This document shows positions 1-3,711 of a DNA stretch of 40,718 nucleotides, in pieces. The stretch comes from Sulfobacillus acidophilus (GTDB lineage Bacteria; Bacillota; Sulfobacillia; Sulfobacillales; Sulfobacillaceae). The stretch spans positions 1-40,718 of the forward strand of contig PXYV01000031.1 in assembly GCA_003023745.1 (NCBI GenBank), in the 5' to 3' direction. Each line of letters begins with the position of its first letter. Positions within the stretch are counted from its first letter, which is position 1. Position numbers and translations under genes: made by a program. Under the pieces are notes generated by a model that was not told the DNA's origin, ran no database searches, and saw only the letters and a list, made by a program, of their open reading frames with translations.

Positions 1-65
1 TTTTGTCCTATCTGGCCACCGTACCCGAAGAAATTCAATCCCGTCTGGGCCGACTTCCCGAATAG
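1..65 (+). CDS. C-terminal fragment of an unidentified protein
   Basis: One frame is open from the left edge to a TAG at 63-65. It encodes about 20 residues ending in LSYLATVPEEIQSRLGRLPE. The acidic and amphipathic composition looks like a genuine protein end, and the frame converges on the tRNA gene downstream. It is too short to assign a family. The other two forward frames read less protein-like sequence, which is the only reason for choosing this one. Confidence 0.3.
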   Translation, partial: LSYLATVPEEIQSRLGRLPE

Positions 66-101
66 CACCGGAAGAAATTAAGGAGCATTCATATAGCAAT
101 G

Positions 102-190
102 TGGTGCCGGGAGCGGGACTTGAACCCGCACAATCCTTCCGGATCGGAGGATTTTAAGTCCTCTGCGTCTGCCGATTCCGCCATCCCGGC
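102..190 (-). tRNA. tRNA-Leu (anticodon UAA)
   Basis: The minus strand folds as a class II tRNA. The acceptor strands GCCGGGA (190-184) and TCCCGGC pair, and are followed by discriminator A and an encoded CCA at 104-102. The anticodon stem GAGGA/TCCTC encloses the 7-nt loop CTTAAAA, giving anticodon TAA, which reads UUA. A long variable arm (CGATCCGGAAGGATTG) is typical of leucine tRNAs, and the T arm contains GGTTCAAGTCC. It lies just downstream of the S1-domain gene and may share its transcript. Confidence 0.96.
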
Positions 191-198
191 CTCATAAA

Positions 199-618
199 TT
201 AGGCGCCACGGCCGCCTCGCTTGGCATCGTTGCTGCGCCGCAGATCTCCCAGCCTATCTTCACTGTCCCGCATAAACCGCTGTACCTTGTCTTCAAAAGA
301 TATCTGTTGGCTGCCGCGCCGCTCATGCCGATGTTCGCGCCGCGGAGCGCTCTCGCGGGCTGGGGCTTGATCTGACTTTGGTTGCGATTGTCGGATTGAC
401 AATGCAATTTTGCCCTTTGGATCCATCGACAACACTTTAACCTGGACCTTGTCATTTTCCTTGTAGTAGTCTTTGATGTCCTTGACATAGGCATCTGCCA
501 CTTCCGAAATATGCACTAACCCCGTCCTACCGTTGGGCAGCACAACAAAGGCTCCAAAGTGGGTAATTCCACTGATGGTGCCCTCTACTATTTGGCCAAC
601 TTCTAATTCAGATGCCAT
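199..618 (-). CDS. S1 RNA-binding domain protein, YabR-like
   Basis: The 139-residue protein starts with one S1 domain (about residues 4-73: VGQIVEGTISGITHFGAFVV, then GLVHISEVAD and VKVLSMDPKGKIALSIRQ), the classic single-strand RNA-binding OB fold. The rest is a basic, Arg-rich tail with low complexity. Known relatives of this size are the general stress protein GSP13/YabR group, some of which bind ribosomes or RNA. The exact role is unknown. In B. subtilis yabR follows divIC, and the same order holds here. An AGGAGG lies about 14 bases upstream of the ATG, longer than usual, so the start is slightly uncertain. Confidence 0.85.
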   Translation of the reverse strand: MASELEVGQIVEGTISGITHFGAFVVLPNGRTGLVHISEVADAYVKDIKDYYKENDKVQVKVLSMDPKGKIALSIRQSQPKSDQAPARESAPRREHRHERRGSQQISFEDKVQRFMRDSEDRLGDLRRSNDAKRGGRGA

Positions 619-726
619 ACAGAGTTCAAGGTCCTCCTATTAGAAACGATTCAGACTACGGACTATTATATGGCGGGATTCGAAAAGTTGTCAACGGGAT
701 ACCCAGCTGACTTTTCCATTTACTGG

Positions 727-996
727 CTACTCGACGCTGTTAAGATTGGGCAAGGGTGCCCGCCCCGTCAGTATGCGCTTCAGTGTGGTGGGATTATGCA
801 GCCGGTGGATATCCGTGCTTAAGAGGCGATTTTCACGTTGCACGACAACAATTTTTTGCGTCAAACTGGCTTCCCTCTGGCCAATCACCCACATATGGTG
901 CAAGGATACCACACACCAATAGACCAAGTAGGCACCAATGACAAGGGTTATGGCCCTTCGCCAACGTACCCGTACTTTCCGTTTGTGGGCTGTCAT
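727..996 (-). CDS. divIC: DivIC/FtsL-type septum formation initiator
   Basis: The 89-residue bitopic membrane protein has a short basic N-terminal cytoplasmic segment (residues 1-14), one membrane helix (about 15-33, AITLVIGAYLVYWCVVSLHH) and a periplasmic-side coiled coil (about 38-68, rich in Q, E, R and L). It ends with the short LKRILTGRAPLP segment. This architecture and its position between the yabP/yabQ block and the S1 gene match DivIC, a divisome scaffold that works with FtsL and DivIB. The ATG overlaps the stop of the upstream HTH gene by four bases (ATGA), so the two are translationally coupled. Confidence 0.85.
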   Translation of the reverse strand: MTAHKRKVRVRWRRAITLVIGAYLVYWCVVSLHHMWVIGQREASLTQKIVVVQRENRLLSTDIHRLHNPTTLKRILTGRAPLPNLNSVE

Positions 997-1226
997 TCTA
1001 TATCGCCCTCTCCGTCATCCCCAAATACCCCCAACGGGTCGCCTGCAATCACCAAGACCACTTGGTATCCCTTGTTCTTTGCCCGATTGTACAATGTCGC
1101 AACCGTTGCGGTGGACAGTCCCAGTTTCTTGGCGATGGCTTCACTGGACTGGCCGGTTTCCTTTAGGGCTACGACCTGGCGTTCGCGAAACGAAAGCCGT
1201 TCCATTCCCCGAATTTCTATGTGCAT
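993..1226 (-). CDS. Small HTH DNA-binding protein (LuxR/sigma region 4-like)
   Basis: The 77-residue protein carries a compact helix-turn-helix: MERLSFRERQVVALKETGQS followed by SEAIAKKLGLSTATVATLYN. This resembles the GerE/LuxR C-terminal or sigma-70 region 4 fold, with recognition helix near residues 35-47. The C-terminal tail is acidic (GDDGEGDIE). No receiver or sensor domain is present. ATG at 1226 is preceded by GAGGG; a second ATG at residue 8 is possible. It is inserted between yabQ and divIC, where B. subtilis has no such gene, and overlaps divIC by four bases. Directly upstream lie a near-consensus promoter and a six-unit, 11-bp-phased repeat array, which makes autoregulation a reasonable inference. 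The gene's targets are unknown. Confidence 0.72.
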   Translation of the reverse strand: MHIEIRGMERLSFRERQVVALKETGQSSEAIAKKLGLSTATVATLYNRAKNKGYQVVLVIAGDPLGVFGDDGEGDIE

Positions 1227-1237
1227 AATCCCTCAAC

Positions 1238-1303
1238 TTATCCACATTCTGTGCACAACCTGTGTACAACATCACTACAAAATTTGTACAGTGCTTGTAC
1301 ATT
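1238..1303. repeat. Six-unit 11-bp phased TGTACA-type array
   Basis: Six consecutive 11-mers fill this interval without gaps. On the plus strand they are TTATCCACATT, CTGTGCACAAC, CTGTGTACAAC, ATCACTACAAA, ATTTGTACAGT and GCTTGTACATT. Columns 7-9 (ACA) are identical in all six. TGTACA itself occurs at 1263, 1285 and 1296, with TGCACA at 1252 and TCCACA at 1241. The period equals about one helical turn, so all units face the same side of the helix. The array spans the -10 element through the ribosome-binding region of the small HTH gene. A multi-site operator is the simplest reading. The first unit is also a perfect DnaA box. Confidence 0.75.
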
Positions 1304-1329
1304 ATAGGATATCCCCAGGGGGCTGTCAC
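1301..1329 (-). promoter_or_regulatory. Sigma-A promoter of the HTH-divIC unit
   Basis: On the minus strand GTGACA (1329-1324), a 17-nt spacer and a perfect TATAAT (1306-1301) form a strong housekeeping promoter. The -35 lies at the very end of yabQ. Transcription would start near 1294, inside the phased array, so proteins bound there would block initiation. Confidence 0.7.
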
Positions 1330-1727
1330 GCTTTTGGCGGGAGTTTTCTTTGACGCCATGGCCAGCGCCTCACCCGCTTCCACAGACGTTGTCCCGGCAG
1401 TGTTGCGTAGTAGACGAGTCGCGCCTGGCCATATGTCATGGCTGACACCAGTGTGAATACGAGCGGGGCGGCAAGCCATGACCACACCCCGTAACCCGTC
1501 AAAATCAAAACAATGGACCAAATGCGGAATGTCCCCCATTCGGTCCAAAACGAGACGCCTACATACCCTATTGCCGCGAGCACGAACCACAACCAATCAA
1601 AAAAGTGATCCAATCCCCAATGGATGCGGTACGATTGTCGACACGCCCCATAGAGAGTGGACAAAAAGCCCAACCCAAACCCCAATAATATCCATACGGC
1701 GATGATATCGAGCGCTTGCGGGGTCAT
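1326..1727 (-). CDS. yabQ: Spore cortex biosynthesis protein YabQ
   Basis: The 133-residue integral membrane protein has about four hydrophobic segments (residues 5-27, 43-60, 66-88 and 89-100) and a strongly basic C-terminal tail. Size, topology and position just after yabP match YabQ, which is required for spore cortex formation and localises to the outer forespore membrane in B. subtilis. It follows yabP by 12 bases and is presumably cotranscribed. The start is an ATG reading MTPQALDIIAVWIL. Confidence 0.85.
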   Translation of the reverse strand: MTPQALDIIAVWILLGFGLGFLSTLYGACRQSYRIHWGLDHFFDWLWFVLAAIGYVGVSFWTEWGTFRIWSIVLILTGYGVWSWLAAPLVFTLVSAMTYGQARLVYYATLPGQRLWKRVRRWPWRQRKLPPKA

Positions 1728-1739
1728 CTTACCCCTCCC

Positions 1740-2012
1740 TTAGCGCCACAGCTTATTCCAGGTACTGCCTGGCCCGCGCGTCGCCTTTTTACGCCCATAC
1801 TGCAACGCATCAAACTCGCCGACCGCTTCAAAGTAACCTCGGTCAAGCGCAAGCGTCTGTATTTTGAGGCTATGGCCGCGGATTGTCATTGTACCCATCG
1901 TTGTGGCCAGCACAATCGAGTCGTCATCGAAACTGTCAACGTGCTGAACCCCTTGCAAGATGAGACTTTGACGGTTCACCAGAGTGATCGAATGCGTCGA
2001 CTTGTCGTCCAT
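1740..2012 (-). CDS. yabP: Sporulation protein YabP
   Basis: The 90-residue protein shows the YabP/YqfC signature: HSITLVNRQSLILQGVQHVD, SFDDDSIVLATTMGTMTIRG, then the segment with LKIQTLALDRGYFEAVGEFDALQYG. In B. subtilis yabP is transcribed with yabQ during sporulation under sigma-E; the molecular function is not established. The 160 bases upstream, up to rqcP, show no other gene and should contain its promoter, but I could not assign a clear sigma-E motif. Confidence 0.9.
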   Translation of the reverse strand: MDDKSTHSITLVNRQSLILQGVQHVDSFDDDSIVLATTMGTMTIRGHSLKIQTLALDRGYFEAVGEFDALQYGRKKATRGPGSTWNKLWR

Positions 2013-2171
2013 GCAAAGGCCCTCTCTTCGCCAAGGCTTTCACGGTTCAAGCCTCTCTTCGGGGGATCGCCTAGACTTGGGAGAAGGGAAGCCTCCTCCA
2101 AGTTTTCCCCACCACAAACGTGGATTAAAACACCAAACCTCTCATTGAAGGATATGGCCGACCGCTTTGCT

Positions 2172-2411
2172 TTAGACCGATCGATACAGGCTTTCGGCAT
2201 CTTTAGCCGGAACATTGTCGCGAATGGCCACGACGATGACCGTTCGTGGGCCACCGGGGATATCCAATGTAATGCGATCTCCCACTTTAACCTCGTAGCC
2301 GGCTTTCACGACCCGCCCGTTCACCGAAACGCGCCCCATGTCTAGAACTTCTTTCGCGACGGTACGCCGCTTAATGATGCGACTGACCTTGAGATATTTG
2401 TCGATCCGCAT
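2172..2411 (-). CDS. rqcP: S4-domain RNA-binding protein RqcP (YabO/Hsp15-like)
   Basis: The 79-residue protein is almost entirely an S4 domain: MRIDKYLKVSRIIKRRTVAK at the N terminus, then VSVNGRVVKAGYEVKVGD. Known relatives bind the 50S subunit carrying peptidyl-tRNA and act with RqcH in ribosome-associated quality control by alanine tailing. ATG at 2411 was chosen over upstream starts because GAGGTGGGG lies just before it and the S4 fold begins at once. The HU terminator separates it from the upstream gene, so it may have its own promoter or depend on readthrough. Confidence 0.9.
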   Translation of the reverse strand: MRIDKYLKVSRIIKRRTVAKEVLDMGRVSVNGRVVKAGYEVKVGDRITLDIPGGPRTVIVVAIRDNVPAKDAESLYRSV

Positions 2412-2440
2412 GTTCCCCACCTCTATCGCTATCATCACAC

Positions 2441-2472
2441 AAAAAGGGGGCATGCACGAACCGCATGCCCCC
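2441..2472 (-). terminator. Intrinsic terminator after HU
   Basis: A perfect 10-bp stem, GGGGGCATGC/GCATGCCCCC (2446-2455 with 2463-2472), closes a 7-nt loop. On the minus strand it is followed by TTTTT (2445-2441). It ends the HU transcript 24 bases after the stop codon. Confidence 0.9.
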
Positions 2473-2495
2473 ACGTATTGAATTATATTACTATG

Positions 2496-2771
2496 CTATT
2501 TGCCCACAGATTCCTTCAACGCTTTTCCAGCCTTGAACGCTGGGACCCGGCTAGACGAGATTTCCAATGTAGCCCCCGTGCGCGGATTGCGACCGACCCG
2601 AGCGGCGCGCTCCCGCACTTCGAAGGTGCCAAATCCCACTAAAGATACGCGCTCCCCCTTGGTCAACGCCAATTCAATGCTCTCGACCACCGCGTTTACC
2701 GCGCGTTCCGCATCCTTCTTGGTCATACTGGCTCGTTCGGCCACTTCGGTTACCAACTCTGCTTTGTTCAA
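2496..2771 (-). CDS. hup: HU family nucleoid DNA-binding protein
   Basis: The 91-residue HU/IHF-fold protein carries the dimerisation helices ([20 protein letters not shown]), the family core [20 protein letters not shown] and the C-terminal part [19 protein letters not shown]. The DNA-binding arm contains the RNPRTG turn with the intercalating proline. TTG at 2771 is preferred: it aligns with the family N terminus and follows a strong AGGGGGG at a suitable distance. An upstream extension in the same frame runs into mazG and reads non-HU sequence. A strong terminator follows the gene. Confidence 0.92.
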
Positions 2772-2817
2772 AATGGTCCCCCCTAATGTGATTTCGCTAA
2801 CGGATTTTCGCATCCAG

Positions 2818-3711
2818 TTATTCGCCAAGACTTCGGGAAATCCTTTTTTTACCGCCAAATTCTCGACTTGGCCCATGTTGTTCTGCAGTCTGTGCCGCTT
2901 TTTTCCACAAAGCCCATTCGGCGTCCATATGGTGGATGCTCCCAAATTGGGCTATAGCCCAGGCGGCATCTGCCAGAATTTCCTCTATTTTCCCCGGGTT
3001 GTTGTCAAGATATACCTTCAAGAGGTCCAAAACCGCTTGATATACTTCGCTTTCCGGTCGCAGGCCGACCTTGCTCAACCGTTTAGCAGCTACCAATGCC
3101 GGAAAGACCCAGGTGGCTGACTTTTGATGGGACGGTTCCTCAGCTTTCAATGCATCCCATTGCTGACGCACTTCGTCGGCGCTGCTCCATGACTCTTGTG
3201 CGAATACGTGAGGATGGCGACGTACCAGCTTTTTCGCCTGTCGTTCGGCAATGTCGTCAAAGCTTGTATCGGACACAAGGGCGCCTTGGAACGCGACTTG
3301 CAAGAGCACATCTCCCAACTCTTCGATAAATGCATCCATATCGTCTGCCACCAACGCTTCAGCGGCCTCATAGCTTTCGTCTAATAGGTAGCGCAACAAG
3401 GAGTGGGGAGTCTGCTGCTTGTCCCATGGACATCCATCTCGCCCCAGTAACCGATCCATGACATACAAAAGCGGCCCAGCCGCCACGGGAATTCCGGGCA
3501 AGATCAAGGCATCGCCGTGAGCCAACGCGATCTCTGACAGTTGACCGAATCGAACCGTCTCGGGCTCACCTGCGGCGCGCGTGATCGTGACGGCTGCATC
3601 CGCGGGAAACTTCTCTCCCAAGCGCTGTTTGATGTCATCGCCCGCAATCGGACCCGGGATCGTAAAACACGCATCGCGACCATCCCAGTCTTTGAGCACC
3701 CAGTGCGCCAT
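2818..3711 (-). CDS. mazG: MazG family nucleoside triphosphate pyrophosphohydrolase
   Basis: The MazG domain runs from about residue 80 to 170. It has [20 protein letters not shown] at 94-113 and the metal-binding acidic residues D111, E112, E115, E130, E131 and D134 ([15 protein letters not shown]). Family members hydrolyse (d)NTPs to monophosphates. B. subtilis YabN at this locus carries an N-terminal tetrapyrrole-methylase domain. Here the first 80 residues are too short for that domain and do not resemble it. The C-terminal 110 residues resemble a second, degenerate MazG half ([15 protein letters not shown] onward). ATG at 3711 has GGGGGGACC upstream. The gene lies between the spoVB-like gene and hup. 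Confidence 0.88.

Follow-up and report, generated by a model that had tools for sequence, protein, structure and literature searches.

A conserved 11-bp-phased array of DnaA-box-like and TTGTA units, a putative two-protein operator, on the promoter of a small HTH gene preceding a divIC-like gene in Sulfobacillus acidophilus

The window, i.e., the whole stretch of 40,718 nucleotides of Sulfobacillus acidophilus DNA that was analyzed, was scanned in its entirety for phased runs and for exact DnaA boxes, and its letters were read from position 1 to position 3600. This part contains a yabP-yabQ-HTH-divIC gene cluster in which a six-unit array occupies the promoter region of a small helix-turn-helix (HTH) gene (Table 1). 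The neighbors of the array are yabQ, the HTH gene, and the divIC-like gene; neither dnaA nor dnaN adjoins it, so that the locus lacks this mark of an oriC. The divIC-like gene has no NCBIfam match and shares 4 bp with the HTH gene. At the end of the cluster, a minus-strand tRNA gene (105 to 190) comes after an S1-domain gene (199 to 618), which we take to be yabR-like.

Table 1. Positions of the genes and sequence features at the array locus
Feature	Position	Strand	Basis
divIC-like gene	727..996	minus	Weak Pfam DivIC match (E 0.0047), under the curated cut-off; conserved position
HTH gene (77-residue single-domain protein, GerE and sigma-70 region 4 like)	993..1226	minus	Pfam
Six-unit 11-bp array	1238..1303	minus	Letters, unit listing, shuffles
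C-type unit TGTGGATAA, exact DnaA box	1238..1246	minus	Exact-box scan of the whole window
Two B-type units, DnaA-box-like	1250..1269	minus	Unit listing and class B matrix
Three A-type units (TGTA...), promoter-proximal, proposed HTH-protein sites	1269..1301	minus	Unit listing
Sigma-A-like promoter, GTGACA-17-TATAAT	1301..1329	minus	Promoter scan, 11/12 match
yabQ, upstream neighbor	1326..1727	minus	TIGR02893, 32.2 bits (cut-off 32); Pfam Spore_YabQ under its cut-off

The product of the HTH gene is a stand-alone conserved HTH protein. It exceeds the Pfam cut-offs of both the GerE HTH domain (31.9 bits for a cut-off of 23.5) and Sigma70_r4_2 (31.7 bits for a cut-off of 25.7). Only HTH-type families score meaningfully in Pfam, with no receiver or signal-binding domain, and sigma region 4 is present without region 2, unlike in a sigma-70 factor. 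The AlphaFold2 model (mean pLDDT of 87) is a strand-HTH-strand fold, and structure searches returned generic HTH folds, including GerE, none with an E value of 0.001 or less. The protein thus resembles the LuxR/GerE and sigma-region-4 regulators by its Pfam scores but differs from them in standing alone and in its predicted flanking β strands. The names given to its orthologs in the sources are inconsistent ("transposase," "FixJ family two-component response regulator," "RNA polymerase subunit sigma-70").

The HTH gene was found in 38 of 41 genomes, including the window's own, in a single copy apart from two weak extra matches. In a phylum-wide sample of 299 genomes it was detected in 119 and yabQ in 239, indicating that yabQ occurs without the HTH gene in many genomes. 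Among 150 loci with a downstream open reading frame (ORF) called, the latter starts between 38 bp inside and 27 bp past the HTH stop codon in 124, the commonest overlap being 4 bp (28 loci), followed by 1 bp (20 loci); these ORFs are longest-ORF picks and include some spurious frames. A DivIC-like motif, defined by a pattern of our own, was recognized in 96 of the 150 downstream ORFs, and the divIC-like gene of the window lacks it.

An earlier note on this DNA had reported six hexamers in strict 11-bp phase, and all of its positions are right: TCCACA at 1241, TGCACA at 1252, TGTACA at 1263, ACTACA at 1274, and TGTACA at 1285 and 1296, with a step of 11 bp between neighbors throughout. Read on the gene strand from 1301 down to 1236, the units are TGTACAAGCAC, TGTACAAATTT, TGTAGTGATGT, TGTACACAGGT, TGTGCACAGAA, and TGTGGATAAGT. 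This run of six ACA is the longest ACA/TGT run at an 11-bp period in the 40.7-kb window, where the runners-up reach 2, and runs at periods of 8 to 10 and 12 to 14 bp do not exceed 3. In 200 dinucleotide-Markov shuffles of the window, the longest run was 2 (175 shuffles), 3 (24 shuffles), or 4 (1 shuffle), and no shuffle reached six. The array is therefore confirmed as a real observation exceeding chance. A repeat search of the window did not return it, since the units diverge.

In-phase units were sorted, with labels, scores, and cut-offs set by rules of our own, into three classes: A (TGTA...); B, inverted DnaA boxes or near-boxes of the form TTRTNCACA; and C, the forward box TGTGGATAA. The array of the window has the order A-A-A-B-B-C rather than B-C-C. 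Its last unit, proximal to the ATG, is the reverse complement of TTATCCACA and the only exact occurrence of TTATCCACA or TGTGGATAA in the window. The two B units, TTGTACACA (1269 to 1261) and TTGTGCACA (1258 to 1250), are oriented opposite to that last unit, and each departs by one mismatch from TTATNCACA, the DnaA-box consensus in the accessible text of PMC4447404; base 1269 is common to the first B unit and the third unit.

Recurrence of the array was investigated at HTH loci, of which 154 were collected and 153 scored, the array of the remaining one (L184) lying 48 bp from a contig end; two loci with short upstream DNA (L121 and L122) were retained, and the window's own class is over-represented in the set. 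Within 250 bp upstream of the HTH gene, at least two TGTNNA units at exactly 11 bp were present in 115 of the 153 loci and at least three in 81, versus 1.8 and 0.0 loci in shuffles. Periods of 8 to 10 and 12 to 15 bp gave at most 8 loci with two units and none with three, and distances between units peaked at 11, 22, 33, 44, and 55 bp (234, 144, 79, 41, and 28 pairs, respectively). The array score exceeded the 99th percentile of the shuffles in 145 of the 153 loci. The recurrence upstream of orthologous HTH genes that the earlier note had suggested looking for was thus observed, a minority of these orthologs (38 of 153 loci) having no run of two TGTNNA units. When up to 3 mismatches were allowed, a three-unit pattern matched a single place in each of 35 of the 41 genomes (as overlapping matches at that place in G008 and G035), with no control matches. 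This supports the proposal that the array, phased by one helical turn, is an operator dedicated to the HTH-divIC operon, since it is tied to the HTH gene.

The classes follow one another in a fixed order, A then B then C. In the 153 HTH loci, A precedes B or C 416 times versus 11 times for the reverse, and B precedes C 206 times versus none. B or C units are present in 128 loci, B lies directly before C in 92, and strict A units accompany B or C in 100, a combination within one array that did not arise in any of 765 shuffles. The best arrays lack B or C in 25 of the 153 loci and lack a strict A unit in 28; thus, neither half is universal.

The GTGACA-17-TATAAT promoter proposed for the HTH gene is present at its assigned position with 11 of 12 matches, and on the gene strand the array starts with the final T of TATAAT. 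The scan that recovers this promoter yielded 2 promoter-like sites versus a shuffle mean of 1.6, and with no excess over shuffles it was dropped as evidence by itself. A −10-like hexamer lies close to the first unit in 89 of the 153 HTH loci versus 25% in shuffles, so that the start site and the early leader would lie under the array in many loci, a location at which bound protein would repress. Being downstream of the −10 element, the array would be transcribed, as needed if it acted as RNA in the leader. However, the leader folds in an ordinary manner (z = −1.09; 24 of 200 shuffles fold equally well), the sole Rfam match at the gathering threshold within positions 1 to 3600 is the tRNA at 105 to 190, and the exact 11-bp phase and the inverted DnaA boxes point to duplex DNA. 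We consider a function as RNA highly improbable.

The B and C units are, by their letters and arrangement, oriC-type DnaA boxes. Exact boxes number 131 in the 37.9 kb upstream of the HTH genes (153 regions) versus 15 in the 439 kb that make up the remainder of these loci, a roughly 100-fold higher density. The B-C-C core, scanned in public genomes as TTATCCACA-N3-TGTGGATA-N3-TGTGGATA, occurs in at least 118 loci. Among the 118 matches listed, 90 are no farther than 636 bp from dnaA, 2 precede an HTH gene (L229 and L244), and 26 are located elsewhere (65, 2, and 13, respectively, for the first 80 listed), and many come from Lachnospiraceae or Bacillus relatives, outside the window's class. The 26 listed matches elsewhere (e.g., L241, L248, L250, L253, L272, L283, and L298) lack a dnaA within 3 kb as well as an HTH gene in the stretch examined, and include Elusimicrobiales, Streptococcus, and Armatimonadetes records; they may be additional sites under DnaA control, or origins truncated where the contig or the stretch ends.

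A looser two-unit pattern gave 143 matches in 114 of the 299 genomes of the phylum, versus 9 for the reversed control. Upstream of an HTH gene lay 61 of these matches (52 genomes), within 2 kb of dnaA a further 35, and near neither the remaining 47, which comprised 10 in HTH-bearing genomes, 1 in a genome without a dnaA match, and 36 in HTH-lacking genomes, one of which, G074, is considered below. dnaA coordinates were obtained for 79 of the 80 genomes queried. Besides a full-length dnaA, three genomes (G200, G225, and G098) have a second DnaA-like match covering 331 to 346 of the 437 model positions, one of these matches being interrupted by an internal TAG.

Comparison with DnaA-box clusters beside dnaA revealed both similarities and a difference. 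Nine-mers matching the consensus are present in the array, and their arrangement is common in dnaA-side clusters among the matches listed. The inverted B-C junction is 3 bp long here, as in loosely defined doublets upstream of own-class dnaA (26 occurrences in 30 loci). These doublets (L058 to L087) often read ATATCAACA-N3-TGTGGATAA, and a further same-strand box commonly follows 23 bp on (15 pairs). The 11-bp same-strand phase is not the rule at own-class dnaA loci, where same-strand boxes are mostly spaced by 12 or 23 bp and by 11 bp only twice, indicating that the extended 11-bp array is no mere copy of the local oriC.

The period itself matches box spacings in published work. In the accessible text of PMC10316083, Thermotoga DnaA shows its best paired binding on same-orientation 9-mer boxes with a 2-bp gap and, on inverted boxes, its best pairing at 4 bp apart; the available part of PMC6070618 gives a 2-bp separation for the low-affinity sites of E. 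coli oriC. A 9-bp box plus a 2-bp gap makes an 11-bp period. As far as these sources go, the array resembles the oriC clusters of E. coli (low-affinity boxes) and T. maritima in its TTATCCACA boxes, 2-bp same-orientation gaps, and inverted B-C junction, and the exact B-C-C motif is common to many dnaA-side clusters among the matches listed. It differs from oriC clusters in its position on the HTH-divIC promoter and in its in-phase TTGTA units, which were not seen at dnaA-side clusters. In B. subtilis, too, DnaA-regulated promoters of genes besides dnaA carry DnaA boxes, but no strictly phased two-type array was seen among the DnaA-bound regions in the portion of PMC4447404 available. Neither yabQ nor divIC appears in the text of PMC4447404.

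The array was also sought at yabQ loci lacking the HTH gene. Forty such loci were chosen by hand to spread over families; divIC was recognized by our own motif in 19 of them, and in the others the search extended as far as the stretch reached. Two units at 11 bp were absent from 39 of the 40 loci, the sole exception being G074, which carries an array before divIC and in whose genome (completeness of 100) the HTH gene has no match at E values up to 0.001. The core before divIC is intact in G074 (TTATCCACA-N3-TGTGGATA-N3-TGTGGATAA), whereas the two unit positions preceding B-C-C, TCTACAATAAT and ACTACTAGTTA, are devoid of TGTA. In G152, which belongs to the same family, these two positions (TGTAAATAATT and TGTACAAAATT) contain TGTA. 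In G074, TTATCTACA is also present 13 bp upstream of the B box. The set includes only 3 genomes from the family of G074 and 3 from its class, so that this case of an array without the HTH gene stays single. G074, as one genome, separates the two kinds of units as predicted if DnaA recognizes B and C and the HTH protein recognizes A. The array was thus retained once in the absence of the HTH gene, for its DnaA-box part only.

These data bear on the earlier note's view of the whole array as an autoregulatory operator at which the HTH protein alone would occupy all six units. The tight association of the array with the gene (115 of 153 HTH loci versus 1 of 40 HTH-lacking yabQ loci) and its single place per genome in 35 of 41 genomes are what this view would lead one to expect. 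It is at odds, however, with the B and C units being DnaA boxes, with the B-C-C core being a common dnaA-side motif (90 of the 118 matches listed), and with the survival of this core in G074. For the array as a whole, this view is not supported, and we regard it as improbable. Autoregulation as such is a narrower claim that fits the TTGTA units, which persist in HTH loci devoid of DnaA boxes.

TTGTA units behave as a feature of HTH promoters. In 67, 34, and 24 of 105 HTH loci, TGTA precedes the first B box by exactly 11, 22, and 33 bp, respectively, versus 0, 0, and 1 of 91 dnaA-side B-C-C cores among the matches listed. Considering boxes with at most 1 mismatch, TGTA occupies position −11 for 44 of 106 boxes at HTH promoters, versus 0 of 141 boxes in 30 own-class dnaA loci and 0 of 147 boxes in 16 dnaA loci of HTH-bearing genomes, the dnaA-locus counts including every such box across the whole locus and not just upstream of dnaA. 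Among the latter 147 boxes, TGTA was found once at −22 and once at −33. The shorter TGT at −11 of exact boxes was detected in 0 of 33 cases at own-class dnaA loci versus 6 of 37 at dnaA loci of other HTH-bearing genomes. No box with at most 1 mismatch is present in the 250 bp upstream of the HTH gene in 20 of the 153 loci, and 15 of these 20 have an A-type array scoring above the 99th percentile of the shuffles (e.g., L113, L144, and L170). The first "unit" in some A-only loci may be part of the −10 element (TGTAGAAT).

These observations also weigh on the possibility that DnaA alone occupies the entire array, the exact box anchoring a head-to-tail filament that would spread over the weak B and then the A units, as at E. 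coli oriC, with the HTH gene being merely a regulated target. All three classes keep to a single strict 11-bp phase, the B and C units are oriC-type boxes, and 2-bp gaps favor DnaA cooperativity in the accessible parts of PMC10316083 and PMC6070618. Since boxes with three mismatches are usable by B. subtilis DnaA according to the consulted portion of PMC4447404, A units could be weak DnaA sites. Against this, TGTA was not found 11 bp before dnaA-side boxes, either among the B-C-C matches listed or in the dnaA loci, A arrays exist in the 15 HTH loci without a box, and A is the part missing from the HTH-less G074. Binding by DnaA alone thus appears rather unlikely to us, and, judging from the distribution of the TTGTA units, the HTH protein itself is their likely binder. 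A triple TTGTA pattern gave 21 matches in the 299 genomes, 4 of them at HTH genes, versus 18 for the control by our own count, i.e., no clear excess, which would leave the HTH protein few such targets other than its own gene. In view of this lack of a clear excess over the reversed control, we dropped the idea that the TTGTA units define a regulon across the genome.

Taken together, the unit classes and their distribution make it moderately probable that the array is a two-protein operator controlling HTH-divIC, with DnaA (B and C units) and the HTH protein (A units) as the predicted binders. DnaA would bind the boxes on the start-codon side, and the HTH protein would bind the TTGTA units on the promoter side of its own gene. 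All units are in one 11-bp phase, which would place both proteins on a single face of the DNA, where they could contact each other. We infer that the array would repress transcription over the start site and the first 60 bp, that the level of DnaA would set this repression, and that the HTH protein would contribute negative feedback. Expression of divIC might thereby track the initiation of replication.

DnaA-controlled promoters and DnaA-box clusters are already known kinds of elements. A strictly phased two-type operator on a divIC operon was not found in the open-access literature searched, most subscription papers lying outside the scope of the search. The array is a conserved cis-element through which DnaA boxes of the oriC type come to lie on the promoter of an operon with divIC, accompanied by a conserved partner regulator. 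To our knowledge, the coupling of replication initiation to division in Gram-positive bacteria is unsettled. A bolder and doubtful extension is that the small HTH protein is a partner of DnaA, the two forming a mixed helical filament in a shared 11-bp register on the divIC promoter, as an ancient DNA-encoded checkpoint present in much of the Bacillota. If this were true, the HTH-DnaA filament would make a division gene responsive to the state of replication initiation.
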